45,821 bases of DNA, taken from positions 1 through 45,821 of IMG/VR virus record IMGVR_UViG_3300020215_000071; one strand, written 5' to 3'. This document shows, one piece after another, positions 7-45,821 of the stretch; the stretch's first letter is position 1; every line of letters begins with the position of its first letter. Source of the stretch: a virus. The position numbers were made by a program, and so were the translations under genes. The notes beneath the pieces were generated by a model. It saw only the letters and a program-made list of their open reading frames with translations. It did not search any database and was not told where the DNA came from.

Positions 7-321
7 TCAGCTTTGTTCGTTAGACGCCGCGACCAAGTGCACATACTGGTCGTTCTCGTCCTTGAGGGGATGGAGCGTCATGTCGCTCACGCGCAGCAGC
101 CAGTTCCGCATTTCGGGTCGAGGGCTTTCGACCATAACCACTTCGTCGCCCGTCTTGAGAGTCGGGTGATCGTGCGGCCACGTCACGTTATACCTTCTCG
201 GGGAAGCGGGAGCCGAGCCGGCGTCTAACCAGGGCGCTGGAGCAGCCTGCGAGTGCCGCGGCTGACAGGCGGTGCCGTGCGTCTTGTAGCTTTCGCCGCA
301 GGTTGGACAGACTATGTTCAT
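7..321 (-). CDS. Small hypothetical protein with N-terminal Cys cluster (tail branch)
   Basis: A 104-residue protein of unknown function. The N terminus has CPTC at residues 5-8 and a further Cys at about 19, which suggests half of a zinc ribbon. The rest is a small mixed domain without a motif I recognise. Its ATG overlaps the stop of the upstream gene by 4 bp, so the two are probably translated together. It lies in the 771-bp left tail, which is not part of the 44.9-kb circle, so it may belong to a variant of this phage. Coding is supported by the coupling and the Cys pattern only. Confidence 0.55.
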   Translation of the reverse strand: MNIVCPTCGESYKTHGTACQPRHSQAAPAPWLDAGSAPASPRRYNVTWPHDHPTLKTGDEVVMVESPRPEMRNWLLRVSDMTLHPLKDENDQYVHLVAASNEQS

Positions 322-716
322 TGCTGCTCAGCTTCTGCGTTAGCCGCCTTTGCCGCCTCAAACTCTTGTCTGGCTCGCGTGTGCCTCGGCCACGTTGCCC
401 CTTTGCATGTGCCGCAAGCGCCCCATGGCCCCATGCCGTTGCCGGCGATACTCCCGCATTCAGTGCAAGCGGCTCTGGCGGTTCCGCTCCATTCGACAAG
501 GAACCGCCCGAGCGCCCGCGCACGGTTGACTACTGCATCGAGCAATTCGGATCGGTTCGGATGTTCGTCTGGAACGCAACCGTAGTCCTCATAGAACACG
601 GTTTCTCCAGTCGAGTCTTTAACGCAAATGCCTTCGTTGTTGTCTTGGTCGAGATACCATGGCATCGGCGCGGCAGTGCGCAGGATTTCGAGCTTTGTGA
701 GTAATGATTGGTCCAT
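318..716 (-). CDS. Small zinc-ribbon protein (tail branch)
   Basis: A 132-residue protein of unknown function. CTEC at residues 84-87 and CGTC at 101-104 form a two-knuckle C4 zinc ribbon; two further Cys lie at 31 and 47. The C terminus is an Ala/Glu-rich helix. It is followed by the 7-321 gene with a 4-bp overlap and lies just downstream of the 737-1075 gene on the same strand, so the three look like one operon. Small zinc-ribbon proteins are common in phage early regions, but I cannot assign a role. It lies wholly in the 771-bp tail. Confidence 0.6.
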   Translation of the reverse strand: MDQSLLTKLEILRTAAPMPWYLDQDNNEGICVKDSTGETVFYEDYGCVPDEHPNRSELLDAVVNRARALGRFLVEWSGTARAACTECGSIAGNGMGPWGACGTCKGATWPRHTRARQEFEAAKAANAEAEQQ

Positions 717-736
717 AAAATTCAGCGGCTAACCCG

Positions 737-1075
737 TCACTGCGCCGAACGCTTCGCGTCGGTGACCTCTGCGTTGCGCGGCGTGACAAAAGGCCACGCT
801 TCTCCGTCGTTCGGGAACCTGCGTTCGAAATCGCGAGCACAGATTTCGCAGGGTATTTCCCAGTAGCCGGACATAGACAGTTTTCCGCGCCCGAAAGTTG
901 GCCCCTCGTGGATTCCGGTGCTCACCTTGCAATCATCGTTCCCGCACGCGGCGTAGTGCCAGCTATCCCCCCACGGATATTTGTGGTGGAAAACGCGAGC
1001 CGTTGGCGGCGCGCCGCGCAACCAGTCATCCCAGCGAACAGCCGACGCTGGCTCAGTGTGAATCGGGGTGCTCAT
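737..1075 (-). CDS. Zinc-ribbon-like hypothetical protein crossing the assembly junction
   Basis: A 112-residue protein with Cys at 44 and 49 and CEIC at 76-79, the pattern of a C4 zinc ribbon. No family recognised. Its last residues are encoded left of position 772, where the sequence splits between the 771-bp tail and the end of the window. With the tail the protein ends in about eleven extra residues after TPRN; if the circle is closed through 45694 it ends in TPRNE followed by TGA. The main domain is the same in both versions. It starts with ATG 25 bp downstream of the integrase gene end. Confidence 0.6.
   Translation of the reverse strand: MSTPIHTEPASAVRWDDWLRGAPPTARVFHHKYPWGDSWHYAACGNDDCKVSTGIHEGPTFGRGKLSMSGYWEIPCEICARDFERRFPNDGEAWPFVTPRNAEVTDAKRSAQ
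772..898. repeat. 127-bp exact repeat, copy 1 (circle junction)
   Basis: This 127-bp segment is identical to the last 127 bp of the window. The base before it differs (G at 771, T at 45694), so the identity begins exactly here. The exact length matches a common assembler k-mer. It most likely marks the place where a circular molecule of 44,923 bp closes on itself and where a second sequence (1-771) joins. Confidence 0.85.
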
Positions 1076-1099
1076 GGTCGGCTGTCGCTGGATTCTGCG

Positions 1100-2068
1100 T
1101 TAAACCTTGATTCCAAGTGCATCGTAGGGGCTGGCGATGGGTGTGGGGTCGGGGGTGAGGTAAACCATGGTGGTGTTGATGTGGGAGTGGCCGAGGTGTT
1201 CCTGGATATCGCGCAGCGGGGTGCCGCGGCGGTAGGTGTGGGTTGCCCAGGCGTGGCGGAGGTGATGAGGGGTGATGGGCTCGGGGAGTTTGAGGCGGCG
1301 GCAGGCATCGCTCATGGCACGCTGGACGTTTGCCTCGTGGAGGTGGAAGCGGACTTTGCGCGCGCGGTTGGCTGGGTCTTCGCAGGGTTCGCGCTGGGGG
1401 AAGAGCCATGCCCAGCCTTTGGACCTTTCGAGGGCGGGGAACTTGCTGGCGAGGCGGCTGGGGAGCTGGATGGGGATGCCTGCGGTAACATCGTGCTGCC
1501 AGACGGCGACGGCATGGCGGGCCTGCGCGGTGAGTGCGGGGAGGAGTGCGCAGGGGAGGGTAACGATGCGGTCTTTATCGCCTTTGCCGCCGTGAACGAC
1601 GATGGCGGAGTCTTTGAGTTTGATATCTCGGAGGCGTAGCTGGAGGCACTCGTGGAGGCGGAGGCCGGCGGCGTAAAGTAGATGGCAGATGAGGCGGGTG
1701 GGGTAGCCGGCGCGGTTTTGAACGTGATGGAGTAGATTGCGGATAACTTGGGGGTCTGGCGCGCGGCGGATGCGGCGGCGGACGTGGGCGCGGAGTGAAT
1801 TGATGCCTTCTGGCAATGGCTGGCGGAGGCCGTGTTTGTAGAAATAGATGAGTGCGTTGAAGCACTGGTTCTGTGTGGTCTGGCTGACGCGGCGCTGCGC
1901 GAGGTGGGTCAGGTAGGCGGTGGCGCGGGCGGCGCTGTCTGGATAGTTGCTGCCGTGCTGGATAAGCCAGCGGGCATAGCGGCGAACCCACTGGCTGTAG
2001 CACTGGATGGTGCGCTCGCCTTTGTGCTGGAGGCGCATGGTGGCTATCATGCGATCGAGGGATTGCAT
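1100..2068 (-). CDS. Tyrosine recombinase of the integron-integrase (IntI) type
   Basis: A 322-residue site-specific recombinase, presumably the phage integrase. Residues 1-100 form the core-binding (SAM-like) domain and about 105-310 the catalytic domain. Catalytic residues are visible: R137 in GLRLHE, K162 in GGKGDKDR, H268 and R271 in TPHHLRH, H294 in LGHSH and Y303 in TTMVYLT. Between boxes I and II, residues about 205-250 carry an extra segment with the layout of the IntI additional domain (LASKFPALER, then WAWLFPQ, DPANR, FHLHEANVQRA). The end, SPYDALGIKV, also resembles the IntI tail. Ordinary phage integrases lack this segment. No attI or attC site was recognised nearby. Its start lies 6 bp after the stop of the 2074-2337 gene, so it is probably the last gene but one of a minus-strand operon. 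Confidence 0.9.
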   Translation of the reverse strand: MQSLDRMIATMRLQHKGERTIQCYSQWVRRYARWLIQHGSNYPDSAARATAYLTHLAQRRVSQTTQNQCFNALIYFYKHGLRQPLPEGINSLRAHVRRRIRRAPDPQVIRNLLHHVQNRAGYPTRLICHLLYAAGLRLHECLQLRLRDIKLKDSAIVVHGGKGDKDRIVTLPCALLPALTAQARHAVAVWQHDVTAGIPIQLPSRLASKFPALERSKGWAWLFPQREPCEDPANRARKVRFHLHEANVQRAMSDACRRLKLPEPITPHHLRHAWATHTYRRGTPLRDIQEHLGHSHINTTMVYLTPDPTPIASPYDALGIKV

Positions 2069-6572: not shown

Positions 6573-7445
6573 TTAGGCGGCGCCTTTGAGTTTGCGCATT
6601 TCCTCGGCCAGTGCCCACAGGGCGCGGTTGACGTGGGTGTTCTGATCGATGCCGCGAATCTCGCGGGTGCGGCGGAATGCGGCGCGGCGGCCGTTGGCGT
6701 CGTGCTGCACGTAGCCGAGCCCGCCGCGGATGGTGTTTTCCTGGACGGTGTTCAGCGTGTTCCAGAGGGTGGGCGCGGCATCGGCGGCGCGGCGGGTGGT
6801 AAGCAGGCGATCGGCCTTGATCGGCGGTTCGTCGTCGCCGTAGCGCGCGACAAGCGCGGCGTTGGCGAATGCGAGTTGCTCGCCGCTGGTGAGGGTGAGG
6901 CGCTCCATCGCGGAAACGCTGGCCGTGACGGTGGGCAGGCGGTCCATGATCTCAATGCAGCCATCGAGCACGGCGCCGGCCACGTCGCCCTTGTGCGGAA
7001 TGCGCACGTCTTCAATCAGGGACTGCGCGACGACCATGCCGTTGCCGCAAACCAGCCGGAAGAGCCCGGCCATGAGGCGATAGGCGCTGGTGCCATCGTG
7101 GCTGTTGATGAGCACGATCTCCGGATGGGACTGGCCGACTGTGAGCGGCGCGGCGATGTGGCGGAGGCGGAGCAGGTGCTTGGTGAAGCCGCGCTTTTCT
7201 TCATCGCGGCTCCCGCCTTGCATGACGGAGAACGGCTTGAAGCCGGCGCGGTCAAGGCGCTCCAAAACGGCGCTGGTGGGAATGTAAGCGTAACGCTCGG
7301 AGCGGCTGCTGTGGCGGCTCTCTGCGAAGACGCTGGGTGCCAGGCGGCGCAGCTGCTCGGGCGAAATGGGCTCGCGGCTGCTGATGGAGGTGGCGCCGTT
7401 CGTCGAAGAGGCGAAGCGGCGGAAGGATGCGGTGTATGTGTTCAC
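6573..7445 (-). CDS. DUF932 (phage/plasmid-like) protein
   Basis: A 290-residue member of the DUF932 family, found in phages and plasmids and often near recombination or anti-restriction genes; its biochemical role is unsettled. Typical features are the RYAYIPTSAVLERL segment near residue 52, the GFKPFSVMQGGSR block near residue 68, and the central HPEIVLINSHDGTSAYRLMAG block near residue 107. Length is normal for the family. The start is GTG 7445, without a Shine-Dalgarno sequence. It is the first gene of a minus-strand operon running to 5933 and diverges from the replication module. Confidence 0.85.
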   Translation of the reverse strand: MNTYTASFRRFASSTNGATSISSREPISPEQLRRLAPSVFAESRHSSRSERYAYIPTSAVLERLDRAGFKPFSVMQGGSRDEEKRGFTKHLLRLRHIAAPLTVGQSHPEIVLINSHDGTSAYRLMAGLFRLVCGNGMVVAQSLIEDVRIPHKGDVAGAVLDGCIEIMDRLPTVTASVSAMERLTLTSGEQLAFANAALVARYGDDEPPIKADRLLTTRRAADAAPTLWNTLNTVQENTIRGGLGYVQHDANGRRAAFRRTREIRGIDQNTHVNRALWALAEEMRKLKGAA

Positions 7446-7660
7446 GGTTTGATTCGGTTTTGCTGTTGTGGCACGCTTCCCTCGTCAGGCGGTGCGGCCA
7501 CTCGGCCGCGGCTTGATTCGGGGCGCGTCGTCGGGTGCAACCGGCGGCGCGCTTTTTCGTGTCGCGATAGGATTACGCTGACTGCGAAGATTTGGCAACA
7601 CAAATCTTGCAGGCGAACGCGGCGAACGGCGCAATGCGTTGGAAAGGAGGGGCTTGCGGC
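7446..7660. promoter_or_regulatory. Divergent intergenic region with inverted repeat
   Basis: A 215-bp non-coding stretch between the minus-strand DUF932 operon and the plus-strand replication module; it should hold both promoters. An inverted repeat with 8-bp perfect arms (AAGATTTG at 7587-7594, CAAATCTT at 7601-7608) stands out against the GC-rich background and may be an operator. No confident -10/-35 pair was seen. Confidence 0.5.
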
Positions 7661-8107
7661 GTGAAGATTTTTTCTCCCGAGCGTCCGAAATCGCGCCGCG
7701 GTCGGCCCCGCGCCCTCTCTTTTTCGCCGGAGGAAATCGCGGATCGGTTGAGCATGCCGGCGGCTGCGGTGGTGCGCGTCCTGGAGCGCGGCCCCTCTCC
7801 TTTTTTTCCTGGAGCGCGCAAGGTCGATGGCGCCTGGAGGGTGCCGGAATGCGACGTGCGCCGGCTCTTCGGCGAGGAACCGCGGCTTTATTCGGTGGCG
7901 GACTTTGCCGAGCTGGTGGGGCTGTCTGTCCCCTGGGTTTACCAGCTGATGCAGACGCCGCGCGATGACGATCCCTCGCGCATGGTGATCCCTCACCGGC
8001 GCGTGCTGGGTCAGAAGCGGATTCCCGCAACGGCTTACTGGGAGCTGCCGGCTGATCGTCCCGCGAGCCTGGCTCCCCGCCCCTCTTCTTTTTCGCGCAA
8101 TGGGTGA
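7661..8107 (+). CDS. Helix-turn-helix DNA-binding protein
   Basis: A 148-residue protein with two helix-turn-helix-like parts: residues about 18-50 (LSFSPEEIADRLSMPAAAVV) and 70-125 (LYSVADFAELVGLSVPWVYQL). The second is excisionase/MerR-like. The start is GTG 7661, preceded by AAAGGAGG at 7643-7650, a good ribosome-binding site. First gene of the replication module, so an early regulator or initiator accessory is likely. Three places in the gene carry a pyrimidine-rich repeat (CCCCTCTCTTTTT type), giving odd peptides such as GPSPFFPGA. It overlaps the next gene by 8 bp. Confidence 0.7.
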   Translation: MKIFSPERPKSRRGRPRALSFSPEEIADRLSMPAAAVVRVLERGPSPFFPGARKVDGAWRVPECDVRRLFGEEPRLYSVADFAELVGLSVPWVYQLMQTPRDDDPSRMVIPHRRVLGQKRIPATAYWELPADRPASLAPRPSSFSRNG

Positions 8108-8783
8108 TCTGATCGAGATGAAGACAGGGAAGCCGGCGAAGCGCGAGCGGCCGGCATCGGCTCTGCCTCCTCTGCCGCCACCAGCACCGAAAGCGACGAC
8201 TGAACTGGGACTGGAGATCGAGATCGCGGAGAGGCTCGAGGAGCGCGGCGTTTACGACGCCAGCCGGCTGAAGGCCACCCGCCCCCATCTTTTTCGCGCA
8301 GCGGTCAAAATGCTGGGTCGCGGGATAAGCACGGAGATAACCGCAGAGTTGCTGGGGCTCGATTATCGAACCGTCGTCGCGGTGCGCGAGGATGCGGAAG
8401 CTGCCGGCGCTATCACAGGGTATAAAGAAAGAACGCTGCGTCAGCTGCGCTCGGTGATCACGCTTTCCCTGGAATCGCTGGTTGATCGCGCTCGGGCTGG
8501 GCTGATCTCGCCAATCGAGGTTTGCGCGCTGATCGATAAAGCGGAGCTGCTGAGCGGTGGCGTCACGGCTCGGATCGAGCACACCGAATCCGAAGAGCTG
8601 GCAGAGATGCGGCGATTCCTGGCCGCAAATAAAGCGCAGCCAATGGTTTTGGAGGCGGAGGAAATGCCGCAAAGGGACGCTTTGCCGGCGCTTCCGGCTC
8701 CTGGGCTCGATCTGGCTGTTTTGCCGCTGACAGAGGATAAAGGATCACCCGTTGCTGTGTCACAAACCACTGATAATCAATGA
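8100..8783 (+). CDS. Predicted DNA-binding protein with central HTH
   Basis: A 227-residue protein. After a Pro/Ala-rich linker (residues 10-35), residues about 65-105 form a helix-turn-helix: AVKMLGRGISTEITAELLG, then DYRTVVAVREDAE. The rest is a long helix and an acidic tail. ATG 8100 overlaps the previous stop by 8 bp; ATG 8118 is another possible start. Its place before the initiator and helicase suggests replication control. A small-terminase role is an alternative, but the gene lies far from the large terminase. Confidence 0.6.
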   Translation: MGDLIEMKTGKPAKRERPASALPPLPPPAPKATTELGLEIEIAERLEERGVYDASRLKATRPHLFRAAVKMLGRGISTEITAELLGLDYRTVVAVREDAEAAGAITGYKERTLRQLRSVITLSLESLVDRARAGLISPIEVCALIDKAELLSGGVTARIEHTESEELAEMRRFLAANKAQPMVLEAEEMPQRDALPALPAPGLDLAVLPLTEDKGSPVAVSQTTDNQ

Positions 8784-8986
8784 TGTGTCCGCTTGTCTCG
8801 CCGGATGTTTTACCAGATCGAGCCGCTGAACTGGTGGCTGGCTGGGTGTCGGAATGGTGGCGCGATCGACGTGATGGGGGGGGAGGGGGGGTGCGGGCGC
8901 GGGCGCGAGCGGGCTGCCCGATGCATTCCGCGACGCAGAAAATTTTGCAAAAGGAAGGAGGGGGGAGCGATGGCTGCCGCTGCTGA
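8780..8986 (+). CDS. Possible small protein with G-tract
   Basis: A 68-residue reading frame whose ATG overlaps the upstream stop by 4 bp. Residues 12-31 are an amphipathic helix rich in Trp and Arg. The second half is encoded by a guanine-rich stretch (8877-8890) and is a low-complexity Gly/Arg/Ala run. It overlaps the next gene start by 17 bp. The coupling supports translation; composition argues for caution. Confidence 0.4.
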   Translation: MMCPLVSPDVLPDRAAELVAGWVSEWWRDRRDGGGGGVRARARAGCPMHSATQKILQKEGGGSDGCRC

Positions 8987-9485: not shown

Positions 9486-10435
9486 GCGCTGCCGCCGGCA
9501 CAGAGCCGCAATTCAAGGGCGTTTGGATCGACGCTGCAATCTGGCTGTCTCCGCTCACCTGGCAGGAGAAGTGCCTGCTCGCGCAGATCAACGTGATGGA
9601 CAAAGGCCAGGGTTGTTGGGCCGCTGACGGCTGGCTGGGGGAGCGATTTGGCGTCTGCGAGCTGCGGATGCGAAACATGATTTCCGGGCTGCGAAAAAAG
9701 GGGTGGCTGGTGGATCGCGGGCGCGACGGCCGCAATCGCTGGATCAGCGTCAACCCTGATCGGCTGTGCACTGCGATCACGAAATCCGTGACATCAGACA
9801 TCACTCAGGGAGTGACATCAGACATCACGGATTCCGTGATGATCACGGATCGAGTGACATCAGACATCACGGAATCCGTGATCGCGGTACATAAGGGAAA
9901 GAACAAGAGAGAGAATACAGTTATTGATCAGCCGTCGCTGATCGAGATCGCTGAAACTCTCGGTAAGGTGAAAGGTGATGCGGCGTTGGCCTTTGACCGA
10001 TTTTGGGCTGAGTATCCGCGGCGGGAGGGGCGCAAGAAGGCGCTGGAAGTTTTCCGCCGAAACAAGCTGCATGAGCGGCTGGAAGAGGTGCTGCAGGGGC
10101 TGCAGCGCGCCAAAGCATCCGAGCAGTGGCAGAATCCGCGCTTCATCCCGCATGCGACGACCTGGCTGAATGGCGAGCGTTGGCTGGATGACGCGCCGAC
10201 GAGCCTCGCCCTTCCACGCCCGCAGGGCGCACACGTTGGGTTTGAAAAAAAGGAAAGGGGGGGCGCGCTGCCGCCGCCGCCGATTCCTGGGCCGGGAGCG
10301 CCGGAGCCGGAGTGGGACTGGCGCGGGGTGTTTCGCGAGCGATTCAAGTGCGAGCCGGCGGAGTGGCACGAGCTGCACGTGACGCAGCAGCGTGAGGTGA
10401 TGCGCAGAGCGCCGAGGGAGGCGGCGACGGCATGA
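9482..10435 (+). CDS. Replication initiator / helicase loader (phage O or DnaT-like)
   Basis: A 317-residue protein with TTG start at 9482, preceded by AAGGAGGG at 9467-9474 (7-bp spacing) and overlapping the previous stop by 4 bp. Residues about 12-70 form a winged helix of the replisome-organiser type (VWIDAAIWLSPLTWQEKCLL through ISGLRKKGWLV). Residues about 163-225 (FDRFWAEYPRREGRKKAL through FIPHATTWLNGERW) are the helicase-interaction domain seen at the end of many phage initiators and DnaT-like proteins. Between them the gene holds iterons and palindromes read as repeated VTSDIT. It overlaps the DnaB gene by 4 bp, which fits a loader. Confidence 0.85.
   Translation: MSAAAGTEPQFKGVWIDAAIWLSPLTWQEKCLLAQINVMDKGQGCWAADGWLGERFGVCELRMRNMISGLRKKGWLVDRGRDGRNRWISVNPDRLCTAITKSVTSDITQGVTSDITDSVMITDRVTSDITESVIAVHKGKNKRENTVIDQPSLIEIAETLGKVKGDAALAFDRFWAEYPRREGRKKALEVFRRNKLHERLEEVLQGLQRAKASEQWQNPRFIPHATTWLNGERWLDDAPTSLALPRPQGAHVGFEKKERGGALPPPPIPGPGAPEPEWDWRGVFRERFKCEPAEWHELHVTQQREVMRRAPREAATA
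9776..9882. other. Predicted replication origin (iterons and palindromes inside the initiator gene)
   Basis: Three exact copies of the 17-bp GTGACATCAGACATCAC start at 9788, 9812 and 9854. Two perfect 17-bp palindromes, ATCACGGATTCCGTGAT (9824-9840) and ATCACGGAATCCGTGAT (9866-9882), partly overlap them, and a half site lies at 9842-9849. An imperfect copy begins at 9776. An AG/AT-richer stretch follows (9890-9930). All spacings are multiples of three, so the frame stays open. Lambda-type phages keep their origin inside the initiator gene in the same way. Confidence 0.75.
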
Positions 10436-18581: not shown

Positions 18582-18603
18582 GGTTTTGTCTCTCCGGAAA
18601 AAG

Positions 18604-18676
18604 TGCGCCCGGTGGGAGTTGAACCCACGACCCGCGGATTATGAGTCCGACGCTCTAACCGTTGAGCTACAGGCGC
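18604..18676 (-). tRNA. tRNA with CAU anticodon (Met or Ile2)
   Basis: A 73-nt cloverleaf on the minus strand: acceptor GCGCCTG pairs with CGGGCGC (one G-U), D stem GCTC/GAGC, anticodon stem CGGA/TCCG around CTCATAA, T arm GTGGG-TTCAACT-CCCAC, discriminator A. The 3' CCA is not encoded. A CAU anticodon serves elongator Met or, if modified to lysidine, Ile(AUA). It lies just upstream of the protease gene on the same strand. Confidence 0.9.
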
Positions 18677-21354: not shown

Positions 21355-21852
21355 GTGACGCGGGAACACGTCATCGAGCTGGATGAGGAATCGCTTCGAG
21401 AGATCGAGGGGCGGCAATCCTTTGAGCGGCTGCTGGCGGACCTGAACACGGGATTCTACGCGCGCGCAACGCTGGCTGAGGCGGCGATGCGCGAGGAGAA
21501 GGAGCAGATCGAGAGCGCGCCGGTGCTGCCGGATAATGTGCTGGGCAAGCCGCGGATGGTGGTGAATGAGGCGACGTTTCACTACTGGGGGCAGCGGCTG
21601 GGTTATGAGTGCTGGGATGATGAGCAGTTTTTGCGGGAGTTCGAGCGGGATAACCCGGACTGCCGGATCAACGCGAAGAGCGCGCGGACGACAATTTTGA
21701 ACCCGTTTGGCCAGGCGGCGCGGGAGGGACTGAAGGGACCGCAGGGACAGAAGGTTTCGACGCAGGATAGCTCAGGGGCAGAGCGCCGGACTCATAATCC
21801 GGAGGCCGGGGGTTCGAATCCCTCTCCTGCAACCATAATCGCAGCGGCATGA
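21355..21852 (+). CDS. Hypothetical head protein whose frame runs through a tRNA
   Basis: A 165-residue frame starting with GTG 21355. Residues 1-118 look like a normal protein: a helical start (VIELDEESLREIEGR), then MVVNEATFHYWGQRLGYECW and an acidic helix. After residue about 122 the frame passes through an AAGGGAC block and then through the whole tRNA at 21761-21835, giving an odd end (SGAERRTHNPEAGGSNPSP). It stops at 21852, overlapping the next ATG by 4 bp. Processing of the tRNA would cut this message. The original end was probably near 21720. Confidence 0.7.
   Translation: MTREHVIELDEESLREIEGRQSFERLLADLNTGFYARATLAEAAMREEKEQIESAPVLPDNVLGKPRMVVNEATFHYWGQRLGYECWDDEQFLREFERDNPDCRINAKSARTTILNPFGQAAREGLKGPQGQKVSTQDSSGAERRTHNPEAGGSNPSPATIIAAA
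21724..21753 (+). repeat. AAGGGAC mini-repeat, locus 6
   Basis: Three (A)(A)GGGAC units spaced by two or three bases just upstream of the tRNA; elsewhere this element marks gene boundaries. Confidence 0.7.
21761..21835 (+). tRNA. tRNA with CAU anticodon, C1-A72 mismatch, encoded CCA
   Basis: A 75-nt cloverleaf: acceptor CGCAGGA against TCCTGCA with a C1-A72 mismatch, D stem GCTC/GAGC, anticodon stem CCGGA/TCCGG around CTCATAA, five-base variable loop, T stem GGGGG/CCCTC with TTCGAAT loop, A73 and CCA. The C1-A72 mismatch is a hallmark of bacterial initiator tRNA, but the three GC pairs next to the initiator anticodon loop are not present (last pair is A-T, as in tRNA-Ile2). It overlaps a coding frame on the same strand. 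Confidence 0.9.
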
Positions 21853-25890: not shown

Positions 25891-26031
25891 ATGATGTTTG
25901 GGCCGATAGAGACGGAAGCATGGGCGCGGCGGCGTGAGGAACGCCGGCGGCAGCGGTGGGGCTGCGTGGGCGCGCTGGTGTTTCTGATCTTTGCGGCGGT
26001 GGCGGTGGTGAGCGCGCTGTTGAAAGCATGA
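25891..26031 (+). CDS. Small membrane protein
   Basis: A 46-residue peptide: a basic amphipathic start (EAWARRREERRRQRW) then one transmembrane segment (residues 25-44, CVGALVFLIFAAVAVVSALL). It begins directly after the previous stop and overlaps the glycosyltransferase start by 4 bp. Orientation should be N-in. Could belong to a lysis cassette with the two preceding genes. Confidence 0.55.
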   Translation: MMFGPIETEAWARRREERRRQRWGCVGALVFLIFAAVAVVSALLKA

Positions 26032-27098
26032 GGCGCGGAGCGGAACCAGAGAGCAAAGGCCAGACGGTGGCGCCGGTGCGGCGGCTGCGTGTGGCGTTTG
26101 TGGCGCCGGGGATGGGAATCGGTGGAGCGGAGCGATGGGTGCTGGCGTTGTGCCGGCATTTCTCGGCCGCGATCGAGGTGGTGGCGATCTTCACGGAGGA
26201 TCGCGATGGGCCACTGGCGGGCGAAGCGAAGCGCTTTGCTCCACTGCTGCCTTACTCGGCGGTGAGGCACACGGCGTTCGATGTGCTGCTGGCGTGGGGC
26301 TGCCCGCAGCTGGCGGAGGTGGTGCCGATGCCGCTGCGCGAGCGGACGGTGGCGGTGAGTCACGGCTCGCCGGAACTGAAGTGGAGCCAGGAGACTTGCG
26401 CGGGAATGGCGAAGGCTGCGGCGCACCTGACGGCGGTGAGCAGACAGGCGGTGGGATCGTGGCCGCGGAAGCGGCAAAAGCAGGTGACGGTGCTGCCGAA
26501 CGGCGCGGAGATCGAGCGGTGTGTGCCGCGCCGCGGCCGTGAGGAGATGCGGCGGGCGTTGGGGATCGGCACCAATGAGAAGGTGGCGCTGTATCTCGGG
26601 CGGCTGGCTCCGGAGAAGCGGCCCTGGATCATGGGACGGATGGCTGATTATCTGCCGGATGACTGGCGGGTGATCGTCTGTGGACCGATAACAACGCAAT
26701 GGTGGGGTGAGTGGGATCACAACCCGCAAGTGTGGGGACCAAAGGTGACATTGCTGCCGCCGGTGGATCATCCCGGCGACTTACTGGCTGCGGCTGATGT
26801 GTTTGTTTTGCCGAGCGAGACGGAAGGATTTCCGCTGGCGCTGACTGAGGCGTGGCTGGCCGGGATCCCGGTGGTGTGCGCGGATTGGCCGACGATGAAG
26901 GATCTGACGGCGCAGCACGGGCACCTGGCGCAGGTGCTGCCGGTGAATGCGCCGGCGTGTGACTATGCGGTGGCGGTGGAGCGTGCAGTGGAGCTGACGG
27001 AAACGGCGGCGCACGCGCGGCGAGTGGCGTGGGAGCACTACACAGCCGGCGCGATGGCGCAGCGGTGGGAAAGCTATCTCGGGAGGATCGCGGCATGA
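26028..27098 (+). CDS. Glycosyltransferase, GT4 family (GT-B fold)
   Basis: A 356-residue enzyme that would transfer a sugar from a nucleotide donor. Typical GT4 blocks: VAPGMGIGGAERWVLAL near residue 25 (glycine loop), TAVSRQ near 142, VLPNGAEIER near 157, ALYLGRLAPEKRP near 186 and the donor site VLPSETEGFPLALTEAWLAG near 260-280 with the E-x7-E motif. Acceptor unknown. It is in a row of 4-bp overlaps with a small membrane gene upstream and the amidase downstream, so it is expressed late. It may modify a host surface glycan, a virion protein, or block superinfection. Confidence 0.9.
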   Translation: MRRGAEPESKGQTVAPVRRLRVAFVAPGMGIGGAERWVLALCRHFSAAIEVVAIFTEDRDGPLAGEAKRFAPLLPYSAVRHTAFDVLLAWGCPQLAEVVPMPLRERTVAVSHGSPELKWSQETCAGMAKAAAHLTAVSRQAVGSWPRKRQKQVTVLPNGAEIERCVPRRGREEMRRALGIGTNEKVALYLGRLAPEKRPWIMGRMADYLPDDWRVIVCGPITTQWWGEWDHNPQVWGPKVTLLPPVDHPGDLLAAADVFVLPSETEGFPLALTEAWLAGIPVVCADWPTMKDLTAQHGHLAQVLPVNAPACDYAVAVERAVELTETAAHARRVAWEHYTAGAMAQRWESYLGRIAA

Positions 27099-27902: not shown

Positions 27903-29762
27903 ATGGCCAGAGAACTTTGCGACGGCGCAGCCGCGACACAATCAGGGACACCAGCAGATACCGATCAACTGCCGCTGAAGCCGGTGGGGGCGGTGCATAA
28001 GAAGTGGCCGATCAGCAACTTCCGGAGCTGGCTGGCTGGCATCTTCCTGCGATTTGACGCAGCGCAGACACTGACGGCCGGGCAGAAGACGCAGGCGCGG
28101 CAGAATCTCGGAATGGGAACGGCCGCGCTGGCGGACACGGGATCGGCCGGCGGGCAGGTGCCGGTGTGGGCTGAAGGGGCCGAAAATGGTTATCTCGTGG
28201 GCGACGGCACGGGAGTTGTCGGTGCTGTGACAGGGATTCCGGGGCAGCAGATCCTGGGGACGTTCATTGCCCAAGAGGATTTTCGGCTGGCAGCCGATCT
28301 CTCACCGGCTCAGCTCACGGCTGACCAGAATGACTACAACCCGACCGGGCTGGCATCGGCGAGCACGGTGCGGCTATCGAGTGACGCCAGCCGGCAAATT
28401 ACAGGGATCGCGGGCGGCCAGGATGGGCGGCTGCTCATCATCCATAACATCGGGAGCAACCCGATAGTGCTGGTGGATGAGTCGGCTAGTTCGGCAGCAG
28501 CAAACCGACTGGCACTCGCTGCCAATGTGACGCTCAACGCCGATCAGTCGGCGGTGCTGCAATATGACAGCACAAGCAGCAGGTGGCGGCTGGCGGCCGG
28601 GCCGAGTGCGGCGGGGGCTACAGCAGATGGTTACGCGGTCAAGACCGGCAACTACACCGCTGTTGCGGGGGATAGAATTTCAGCCGACACAAACGGCGGC
28701 GCCTTCACAGTCACTCTCCCAGCGAGCCCCAGCAATGGGGACAGTGTGTGGGTCAAGGATGCTAGAGATACGTGGGGGGAAACCGCTTCGGATAAGTCAA
28801 TCACCATTGGCCGCAACGGCAATAACATCGACGGCGCTGCCAGCGATCTAAACCTCCGAGTTAGTGGAGGCTCGATTCAGTTGGTTTACAATTCGACTGG
28901 CGGATGGAGGAGCTTTATATCAACCGGGCGGGTAAATGTTCAGGCGTTTGCTATTAACGGGACGTGGGTTAAACCGCCAAACGCCCAAGCCTGTGACATT
29001 CTGTTGATCGGCGGCGGCGGTGGCGGGGCTTCCGGTAGACGCGGAGCACCGGGCACTGACCGTTATGGCGGCGGTGGTGGCGGCGGAGGCGCAACGCTGC
29101 GAATTCGCGTGCCGGCTTCAGCCCTCGGGGCCACAGAGTCAATTACTATTGGTAGTGGTGGCACAGGTGGCGCGGCGATCACCACAGACGACACTAATGG
29201 CGCTACCGGCGTGGCGGGAACCGCAACATCCATTGGCACTAAATATATTGCGCCCGGTGGGATAGCTGGAATAGGCGGAACAAATGCAAGCGGCACAGCG
29301 GGAGGAGCGAGAACCCACATAGTCGATTTTGGATCGGTCTCTACTGGCGGCGGTGGGGCTGGAACTGTTACGACTGGCACCGGGGCCACTTCACCGGGGG
29401 TGATCGTGCCAACCGGAGGCGCGGGCGGCGCTGGTAGGCCAACAAGCGACGGCACGTTTAACGGCGGGAATGGGGGCGGATACACGTCAAGCGGCACTAG
29501 TGTAATCCACACTTCCATTACTGGTGCCGCCGCGGGCACTGGTGGTTCGGTGAATGGAGCGAACGGCTCAACTCACCATGGTCTTTTCGGCGGCGGTGGT
29601 GGAAGCGGCGCCGCGCAGGCAACGCCCGGCAATGGAGGAAATGCGGGGAATTACGGAGGCGGCGGCGGTGGCGGGGCTGGGGGGCCAAACGGCGTAAATT
29701 CCGGCGCAGGCGGCAATGGCGCACCGGGATTCGCTGTCATCATCACTTACTGCGCAAAGTAA
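27903..29762 (+). CDS. Tail fibre / adhesin with glycine-rich C-terminal domain
   Basis: A 619-residue protein. Residues 20-70 hold a tail-fibre-type helical block (LTAGQKTQARQNLGMGTAAL). Residues about 120-340 are beta-rich repeats, and residues about 360-610 are very rich in glycine (runs such as GGGGGG and GGAGGAG), the layout of phage adhesins whose tips form polyglycine-helix sandwiches to bind receptors. The end, GAPGFAVIITY, is shared in form with the adhesin at 34352. The 3' two thirds have lower GC than the rest, a sign of exchange. The following small gene overlaps its stop by one base. Confidence 0.85.
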   Translation: MARELCDGAAATQSGTPADTDQLPLKPVGAVHKKWPISNFRSWLAGIFLRFDAAQTLTAGQKTQARQNLGMGTAALADTGSAGGQVPVWAEGAENGYLVGDGTGVVGAVTGIPGQQILGTFIAQEDFRLAADLSPAQLTADQNDYNPTGLASASTVRLSSDASRQITGIAGGQDGRLLIIHNIGSNPIVLVDESASSAAANRLALAANVTLNADQSAVLQYDSTSSRWRLAAGPSAAGATADGYAVKTGNYTAVAGDRISADTNGGAFTVTLPASPSNGDSVWVKDARDTWGETASDKSITIGRNGNNIDGAASDLNLRVSGGSIQLVYNSTGGWRSFISTGRVNVQAFAINGTWVKPPNAQACDILLIGGGGGGASGRRGAPGTDRYGGGGGGGGATLRIRVPASALGATESITIGSGGTGGAAITTDDTNGATGVAGTATSIGTKYIAPGGIAGIGGTNASGTAGGARTHIVDFGSVSTGGGGAGTVTTGTGATSPGVIVPTGGAGGAGRPTSDGTFNGGNGGGYTSSGTSVIHTSITGAAAGTGGSVNGANGSTHHGLFGGGGGSGAAQATPGNGGNAGNYGGGGGGGAGGPNGVNSGAGGNGAPGFAVIITYCAK

Positions 29763-43486: not shown

Positions 43487-43728
43487 GGCAGCCGGCAAAG
43501 CTGGGCGCTTTTCGGCGTAAGTGGCTGGAGATCAGCGGGCGTTTTCGGCGGGCCAGTGCTCTCATAATCCACCGAGGCGGGAGGTTTGCGGGTGTTCAGG
43601 ATCAAGGGGTTTTGTGCGTAAGTGGCTGAGGGTGCGTTGTGAGGGGGCGATTTTGCTGGATTTGTGGTTCTGCGGTTTTCTGTTGTGTTCTGCCGGCGGA
43701 GCGGTAAAACATCCGGCAAAACAAGCTC
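43487..43728. other. Non-coding region, candidate attP site
   Basis: A 242-bp stretch without a convincing gene, upstream of the second recombinase. It has two 19-bp direct repeats with two differences (43509-43527 and 43610-43628, sharing GCGTAAGTGGCTG). Midway between them lies CTCATAATCC (43561-43570), the anticodon-loop sequence of both tRNAs in this window, followed by a tRNA-like GAGGCGGGAGGTT. Arm repeats flanking a tRNA-like core is the expected layout of an attachment site. No full tRNA can be folded. Confidence 0.45.
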
Positions 43729-45099
43729 TTGATGGCGCTGGGGTCTTTTTGTTTGGTGCGGCAGCGGAAGCCGGTGAATCGCTGGGCTCGGGCGGGCGTG
43801 CCGGAGTTCTTTCCGAATTGGATTGTGATGCTGCGGCTGCCGGGGCTGCCGCGGCGAGGGGAATCGGCGCGGGCTCCGATCTGTGATCTTTGTCTGGCGG
43901 TGGAGGGGTCGCCGACTGTGGCGCGGCCGGACTGTCGGTGTCAGCGGCCGGCTCGGGAGTTTGCCACGGAACTGCTGAAGACTTCGCAGCATCTGTGGCG
44001 GCAGAATCGGTTGCAGGCTTTGCGGGAGTTGCGGGGTGGGCGGCGGGCGGCGCCGGCGCTGCGGCGGGTGCAGGAGGTCTATATGGCGAACCTGCCGGAG
44101 CGGATGAAGCAGAGCGGGCGGGAGAATTGGAATGCGCTGCTCTCGATCGTGGAGCAGGTGACGGGGCTTTCGCCTGAAGCGGTGCTGGAGTTGCCGATCA
44201 GCTGCCTATCAAAGCAACTGGCGCTGGATTGGATGCGGCTGCGGCAGGCTTACAATGCGGATCTGTCGAAGCCGGAGGGTGAGCGGCGATCGTGGGGGCA
44301 GTTGCGGGCGGCGCTGAAAGCGGGGGAATTGCCGGGGTTGGTGATCGATGTGCCTTTGCCGGGGAACTACACGATCAACACGATGCTGGGGAAGGCGAAG
44401 AGCATCGCGGGCAAGAAGTCGCGCAGTTTTTACCTGAACGCGCTGGAGTTGCCGGATCTGAGTGGGTTCTGCAGTGTGAGTCGGCTGATCGCGCGGCATG
44501 GGCATGAGGCGCTGGAGCGGGGGGTGATCGCGAAGATCGAGGAGCAGGCTGCAGGGTGGCGCAAAACGAACGTGGACTTGTGGATTGCGCACCAGCTGAT
44601 GAGTCGGATGGGGCTGCGTCCGCGGGAGGTGTTGGCGGCGCGGCGATCGTGGCTTGAGTATGAGAAGGAGCCGCGGTTTCGGCCGGCGGAGGCGGGCGCG
44701 GGGTGGATCCTGGTGGTGCGGAACCGGCCGGAGGAGAATTTCTGGCAGAAGGCGCGGGGCAAAGCGATAACGCGGCGCTATGTGGTGGATCGGGACTTGG
44801 CGGCGGTGCTGCTGCGGCGGCGTCGGAAGCCGTGGCTCTTCGCTCCGGACCTGGCGCCGACTGGCCGGCGCAACTTGATAGAGCGCACGCTCTCGAAGGA
44901 GCTGCGGCGGTTTCTGGCGAGTCGCAAGGGGACGAACTACGAGCTGCGGAAGCACTACATTTCGACGATCTACAGTAAGCACGGGCGCGAGGCCGCAGCG
45001 GCGCAGGGCGGGCATGCAACGTCTGAGACGACGGAGGGCTATTACGCGACGCGGCTGGGGGTGTTGCCGACTGTGACGGGCGCGGAGTTGGCAGGGTAG
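43729..45099 (+). CDS. Divergent tyrosine recombinase with N-terminal Cys cluster
   Basis: A 456-residue protein. The C-terminal part has tyrosine-recombinase boxes: R297 in MGLRPREVL, R407 in YELRKHY, H429 in GGHATSETT and Y438 or Y439 in GYYATRL. The usual His three residues before the second Arg is Tyr404, so one catalytic residue is replaced. Residues 52-71 carry CDLC and CRC, a possible zinc knuckle. The region 120-290 is the likely core-binding domain. TTG 43729 or ATG 43732 starts; no Shine-Dalgarno sequence. It is the second recombinase of this phage and faces the zinc-ribbon gene at 45170. Confidence 0.75.
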   Translation: MMALGSFCLVRQRKPVNRWARAGVPEFFPNWIVMLRLPGLPRRGESARAPICDLCLAVEGSPTVARPDCRCQRPAREFATELLKTSQHLWRQNRLQALRELRGGRRAAPALRRVQEVYMANLPERMKQSGRENWNALLSIVEQVTGLSPEAVLELPISCLSKQLALDWMRLRQAYNADLSKPEGERRSWGQLRAALKAGELPGLVIDVPLPGNYTINTMLGKAKSIAGKKSRSFYLNALELPDLSGFCSVSRLIARHGHEALERGVIAKIEEQAAGWRKTNVDLWIAHQLMSRMGLRPREVLAARRSWLEYEKEPRFRPAEAGAGWILVVRNRPEENFWQKARGKAITRRYVVDRDLAAVLLRRRRKPWLFAPDLAPTGRRNLIERTLSKELRRFLASRKGTNYELRKHYISTIYSKHGREAAAAQGGHATSETTEGYYATRLGVLPTVTGAELAG

Positions 45100-45652: not shown

Positions 45653-45694
45653 GCTGTCGATAGAGGTAATATGCTGCTGGCGTCGGATATCATT

Positions 45695-45821
45695 CGTTGC
45701 GCGGCGTGACAAAAGGCCACGCTTCTCCGTCGTTCGGGAACCTGCGTTCGAAATCGCGAGCACAGATTTCGCAGGGTATTTCCCAGTAGCCGGACATAGA
45801 CAGTTTTCCGCGCCCGAAAGT
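45695..45821. repeat. 127-bp exact repeat, copy 2 (window end)
   Basis: The last 127 bases repeat 772-898 without a difference. Together with the divergence just before each copy this is what an assembler leaves when a circular edge re-enters its own start. Confidence 0.85.

Follow-up and report, generated by a model that had tools for sequence, protein, structure and literature searches.

Phage-borne integrons are already known: integrons and CALINs have been described in phages, and IntI1 recombined five of the six phage attC sites tested (Qi et al. 2023, PMC9892861). The complete integrons among them look like host or class 1 integrons. Integrons have also been speculated to have a viral origin, in which a Xer-like enzyme would have acquired the additional domain in the course of phage integration (Escudero et al. 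2016, PMC4792948), and CTXphi is known to integrate a folded single strand (PMC4792948). Xer recombinases, which serve Xer-dependent phages such as CTXphi, share the tyrosine recombinase fold of IntI but lack its additional domain. Virus Rctr41k (KX853513, 41 kb) carries capsid and terminase genes, a XerC-like integrase, an IntI and six attC-like sites, which are the only matches of our attC scan in its genome.

The locus described here lies in an entire IMG/VR virus record of 45,821 bases, referred to as the window, and, like the phage integrons and CALINs of PMC9892861 with their IntI and/or attC sites, it places IntI and attC-like sites in a phage genome. As in Rctr41k, a phage IntI is followed downstream by an attC-like array and accompanied by a further, separate tyrosine recombinase, whereas in Rctr41k the cassette genes run along the attC orientation, the attC family is different and the IntI is only about 35% identical. 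Unlike the complete integrons of PMC9892861, this one has its array downstream of intI and its genes antisense to attC. What is new is the divergent IntI, the antisense placement of cassette genes relative to attC and the conservation of the locus in a phage lineage, including a sister phage.

An integron integrase in a tailed phage

The carrier contig is a real tailed phage, encoding on the same molecule a replication initiation protein, a DnaB-like helicase, a large terminase, an SU10-type major capsid protein and virion/tail proteins. A 127-bp exact overlap, the length of a common assembler word, closes a circle of 44,923 bp (772-45694), and a 771-bp tail (1-771) enters this circle at 772 as an alternative left branch (Table 1). 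Elsewhere, the genome encodes a DUF932 protein (6573-7445, minus strand, E 1e-43), a glycosyltransferase (25956-27098, plus strand) and two tRNAs with anticodon CAT, inverted to each other around the capsid region (18603-18676, minus; 21761-21835, plus). Palindrome-rich, origin-iteron-like repeats (ATCACGGAATCCGTGAT and similar) occupy 9776-9882 within the replication initiation gene. A 9-base unit (GAAGGGACG-like) forms short tandem arrays at 2628, 14570, 17528, 19093, 21723, 30345, 36036, 45099 and other positions; several directly follow stop codons and may be regulatory or terminator-type repeats.

Table 1. Features of the phage locus, in window coordinates.
Feature	Position	Strand	Evidence or content
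intI, integron integrase, 322 aa	1100..2068	(-)	TIGR02249; 2a3v by sequence and fold; tree
IntI additional domain (aa ~199-251), inside intI	1316..1474	(-)	41.4 bits, E 3.9e-13, known-IntI profile
attC-like site 1 (strong)	1016..1105	(+)	R'' GCGCAAC, L'' CCAGCGAACAGCCGAC, L' GTCGGCTGTCGCTGG, R' GTTAAAC; scan score 15
attC-like site 2 (weak stem)	727..779	(+)	R'' GGCTAAC, R' GTTGCGC at 773-779; TCTGCGTT at 768
attC-like site 3 (moderate)	223..345	(+)	R'' GTCTAAC, L GCTGGAGCAGC/GCTGCTCAGC, R' GTTAGCC; scan score 11.3
R'-like box GTTAGAC, possible fourth attC cut by contig end	19..25	(+)	sequence
Putative attI-like site GGATATCATT, left half	45685..45694	(+)	joined in circle to CGTTGCGC at 772
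Cassette gene A, 112 aa	737..1075	(-)	ORF; 56% identity over 53 aa to an uncultured 485-kb phage
Cassette gene B, 132 aa	318..716	(-)	ORF
Cassette gene C, 104 aa	7..321	(-)	ORF; weak DUF6093 match below cut-off
127-bp exact repeat, first copy, closes circle	772..898		identical to 45695-45821
127-bp closing overlap, second copy	45695..45821		identical to 772-898
Second, divergent tyrosine recombinase, 456 aa	43729..45099	(+)	phrog_1 E 1.1e-5, phrog_216 E 8.7e-5

The product of intI is a genuine but divergent integron integrase, in agreement with the preliminary description, which had named an integron-integrase-type recombinase on a phage and had suggested an additional-domain profile search, a tree with IntI, XerC/D and phage integrases and a search for attC-like folded sites. 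All catalytic residues are present (R137, K162, H268, R271, H294 and Y303), and intI is the sole PF00589 match within the window. The best NCBIfam family, TIGR02249, covers residues 4-316 (E 1.2e-71), but despite this full-length match the score of 241.7 bits does not reach the curated cut-off of 265 bits; we therefore make no claim to the NCBI-defined subfamily, and membership of the IntI clade is based on the tree, the additional domain and the fold. VchIntI (2a3v) is the nearest solved relative by sequence (E 7.8e-41) and has the closest fold to an AlphaFold model (pLDDT 92.5; TM 0.82, E 3e-21), with XerA as the next structural match (E 9e-12). The enzyme is like VchIntI and IntI1 in full-length homology, additional domain, box spacing, predicted fold and clade, and unlike known IntIs in its sub-cut-off TIGR02249 score, its 31-37% identity to the named IntIs compared, its YLT in place of the usual YTH after the nucleophile, and its long branch. 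Its C terminus, SPYDAL, is in keeping with the SPLDAL style of IntI, as had been proposed. No close relative of P0001 was found in IMG/VR.

The segment between catalytic boxes I and II, which the preliminary description had likened to the IntI additional domain, is indeed matched by a profile of that domain (Table 1). This profile was built from 28 known IntIs, namely IntI1, the V. anguillarum and Shewanella IntIs and 25 Nitrospirota chromosomal IntIs, with the window and IMG/VR sequences left out. XerC, XerD, the Rctr41k XerC-like protein and the second recombinase of the window all score below 0 bits against it. The box I Arg and the box II His are 131 residues apart here, as in IntI1, and 132 apart in V. 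anguillarum IntIA, compared with 92 in XerC and 96 in XerD.

In a careful tree, IntI and XerC/D are split with support of 100/99 and the window protein falls inside the IntI clade. There it forms a long branch that is sister to the Rctr41k IntI (94/85), its exact place being unsure. In a quick tree it falls outside lambda Int. A pairing with L011 in a 113-row tree may reflect long-branch attraction. About a fifth of the Nitrospirota genomes searched (L002, L111-L135) have IntI-like genes above the cut-off; several of these genes carry a long N-terminal extension, which in L002 resembles a second SAM-like domain.

attC-like sites and cassette genes

Three attC-like sites, one strong, one moderate and one weak, lie beside intI, and more occur in the sister phage; they are candidates for the folded sites that the preliminary description proposed to look for. 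A scan for attC anatomy, in which AAC and GTT, each set off by a spacer, enclose a stem with one bulge, gives three matches scoring at least 11 in the 45.8-kb window, two of them beside intI (sites 1 and 3) and one comparable hairpin away from it, at 29407-29551. Simulated sequence of the same dinucleotide make-up contains a mean of 1.25 matches of at least 11 and 0.017 of at least 14. Other phage DNA (183 kb) yields five matches of at least 11, which corresponds to about 0.03 expected in the 1.1-kb array. The R''/L''/L'/R' anatomy with an extrahelical base is seen in the window sites, strongly in site 1, moderately in site 3 and weakly in site 2. Site 1, which overlaps the stop codon of intI, folds better than shuffled sequence as minus-strand DNA (z -3.2), while sites 2 and 3 fold no better than shuffles. 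A covariance model of attC was set aside, since the 36 control attC sites aligned without any consensus base pair and the model was sequence-only. The octamer TCTGCGTT has three copies in the window when both strands are searched (334, 768 and 1094), each directly 5' of the GTT of an attC-like site, and none elsewhere. An R'-like GTTAGGC at 2073, considered as an attC at the 5' end of intI, has no stem.

Orientation was read from the bulge. In control arrays located upstream of IntI on IMG/VR contigs, the extra base of a one-arm bulge lies in the 5' arm in 60 of 61 hairpins (a further nine hairpins have a mismatch and four have no bulge). Sites 1 and 3 have this base in the 5' arm on the plus strand, so the attC top strand of the window is the plus strand, and genes A, B and C and intI, all on the minus strand, are antisense to attC. 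The integron layout of cassette genes along attC with intI divergent from the array is therefore not seen here; intI lies at the far end of the array. The starts of gene A (1075) and gene C (321) fall inside attC-like sites. In the circular form, gene A stops two codons past the G^TT region and not at 737. No relatives of genes B and C were found when looked for.

The branch point of the contig

The two branches of the contig come together at the G^TT in site 2: the tail reads ...CTCTG and the circle ...ATCATT, each followed by CGTTGCGC. IntI cleaves at 5'-G^TTRRRY-3' (PMC9892861), and the GTTGCGC box of site 2 is one position off this consensus. On the left side of the branch the circle has GGATATCATTCG, and the combined GGATATCATTCG^TT may represent an attI-like site, judged from sequence features of a class of site too poorly conserved for proof. 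GGATATCA is unique in the window and has two copies at the start of the array in the sister phage. Neither the junction nor the attI-like site has an exact DNA match in IMG/VR.

The branch is shaped like an attL/attP pair, and insertion of the phage into an attC of the host would explain it nearly as well as cassette exchange. The circle would then be the free phage and 1-771 host integron DNA at the left end of the integrated form, with IntI or the second recombinase inserting the whole phage like a giant cassette. In keeping with this, 1-771 departs more from the phage in trinucleotide composition than do 96% of stretches of phage DNA, excision at attC sites is known for Vibrio phage p16 (PMC9892861), and both Rctr41k and the window phage keep a second recombinase. 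We nevertheless regard it as unlikely, though a serious contender: genes A, B and C are alike in size and layout and extend the leftward gene run of the phage, site 1 lies inside the circle, and the corresponding locus of the sister phage has attC-like sites within the phage itself.

A second tyrosine recombinase

The second recombinase ends 0.6 kb from the branch and adjoins the array. Its PHROGs integrase matches are over the C-terminal half; a Pfam search gave no match, and an hhalign comparison with IntI was not significant (probability 1%). A single-sequence fold (pLDDT 37) was not used, and TAL-effector matches of this protein look like repeat artefacts. It is 46% identical to its partner in the sister phage and is probably the phage's own integrase. 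A role of IntI as the attachment enzyme is doubtful, because this second recombinase adjoins the array and is kept in the sister phage without IntI. A 24-nt inverted repeat, 92% complementary (8791-8814 and 43703-43726), has one arm immediately before the second recombinase gene.

Another explanation would be that intI encodes a relative of IntI that now works as an ordinary phage integrase on double-strand attP/attB, with the hairpins being unrelated. Its standing as the only PF00589 match would fit such a role, as would the usual position of int genes near attP; but the additional domain is kept, attC-like sites adjoin intI, and the 43729-45099 recombinase is better placed for the job, which makes this explanation very improbable.

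Related loci

The sister phage (IMGVR_UViG_3300011115_000937, hereafter G002; 40,099 bp) is syntenic with most of the window, and its terminase is 60% identical. Its genome has no PF00589 match and no intI. Its only three attC-like matches, at 7539-8199, are at the corresponding locus, next to the same second recombinase. Two of the three follow the orientation rule of the window; the third (8058-8199) is opposite and may be due to chance. The best site (GCACAAC GCAGAATT CAGCGA...) has AACGCAGAATyCAGCGA in common with site 1 of the window. By eye, about 8420-8600 (minus strand) of L103, in the G002 gap between recombinase and array, resembles a C-terminal remnant of another tyrosine recombinase (ALGHSSVDTTAKHYA...).

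The conservation of the locus in G002 weighs on a further explanation, that it is a captured piece of a host integron, consisting of intI and a few cassettes, passive and functionless for the phage. Four named phage records with IntI have been described as pieces of host integrons or as integrons of class 1 (PMC9892861), which lends such capture some plausibility. Here, however, the enzyme is intact and lacks none of the catalytic residues, is divergent from the named IntIs, sits amid phage genes and occupies a locus common to G002, and we consider capture improbable.

Among 80 IMG/VR loci with IntI-like genes, the 6 kb or less upstream contains at least one attC-like match in 34 and at least two in 21, and at least two matches lie downstream in three. 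The terminase family searched for was matched in 12 of 50 records of these loci, and some IMG/VR records with IntI-like genes are probably bacterial DNA. In L033, L037 and L047 the integrase is class 1 IntI1 or nearly so and a viral origin is doubtful; these records are probably integrons of plasmids or chromosomes that were classed as viral. A native phage IntI was rejected for Vibrio phages p16 and p42, whose gene adjoins rplT in a host integron. L024 (IMGVR_UViG_3300027811_000005, 53 kb) matches terminase and has three attC-like sites downstream of its IntI in the same direction; it is possibly another phage integron.

Discussion

With moderate confidence, we favor the view that intI is part of a small phage-resident integron with a varying set of cassettes. 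This view draws on the identity of the IntI, the rare hairpins beside intI, the octamer before the GTT of each site, the 5'-arm position of the extra base, the branching at G^TT, the G002 sites at the same locus and the parallel with Rctr41k. Against it stand the TIGR02249 score, the shuffle-like folds of sites 2 and 3, the hairpin at 29407-29551 and the antisense genes.

We infer that the IntI is active, that GGATATCATTCG^TT acts as attI, that cassettes are exchanged and that they are expressed by read-through. In such a phage-resident integron, IntI would recombine the folded attC-like hairpins with the attI-like site (GGATATCATTCG^TT, 45685 onward), cutting at G^TT, and small cassette genes would thereby be gained and lost. 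These genes end the leftward small-gene run of the phage, and their transcription would come from read-through on that side. The circle, with attI and the gene-A cassette, and the 771-bp tail, in which this same G^TT is joined to more cassettes, would represent two cassette states in one phage population, while integration of the phage itself would probably fall to the second recombinase.

A bolder proposal, to which we give somewhat less than an even chance, is that integrons are native to phage lineages, with their own divergent IntI and attC family and with cassettes placed for read-through from a phage operon, and that the branch records turnover in the population. The locus bears on the suggested viral origin of integrons (PMC4792948), although the position of the protein as a long branch within IntI does not prove it. 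With a divergent IntI and an attC family of its own, at a place in the genome common to related phages, it provides a testable object for that question. It also points to a way in which phages could rearrange the small accessory genes they carry. If native phage integrons are real, integrons would have independent homes in phages, which might also be an old source of them.
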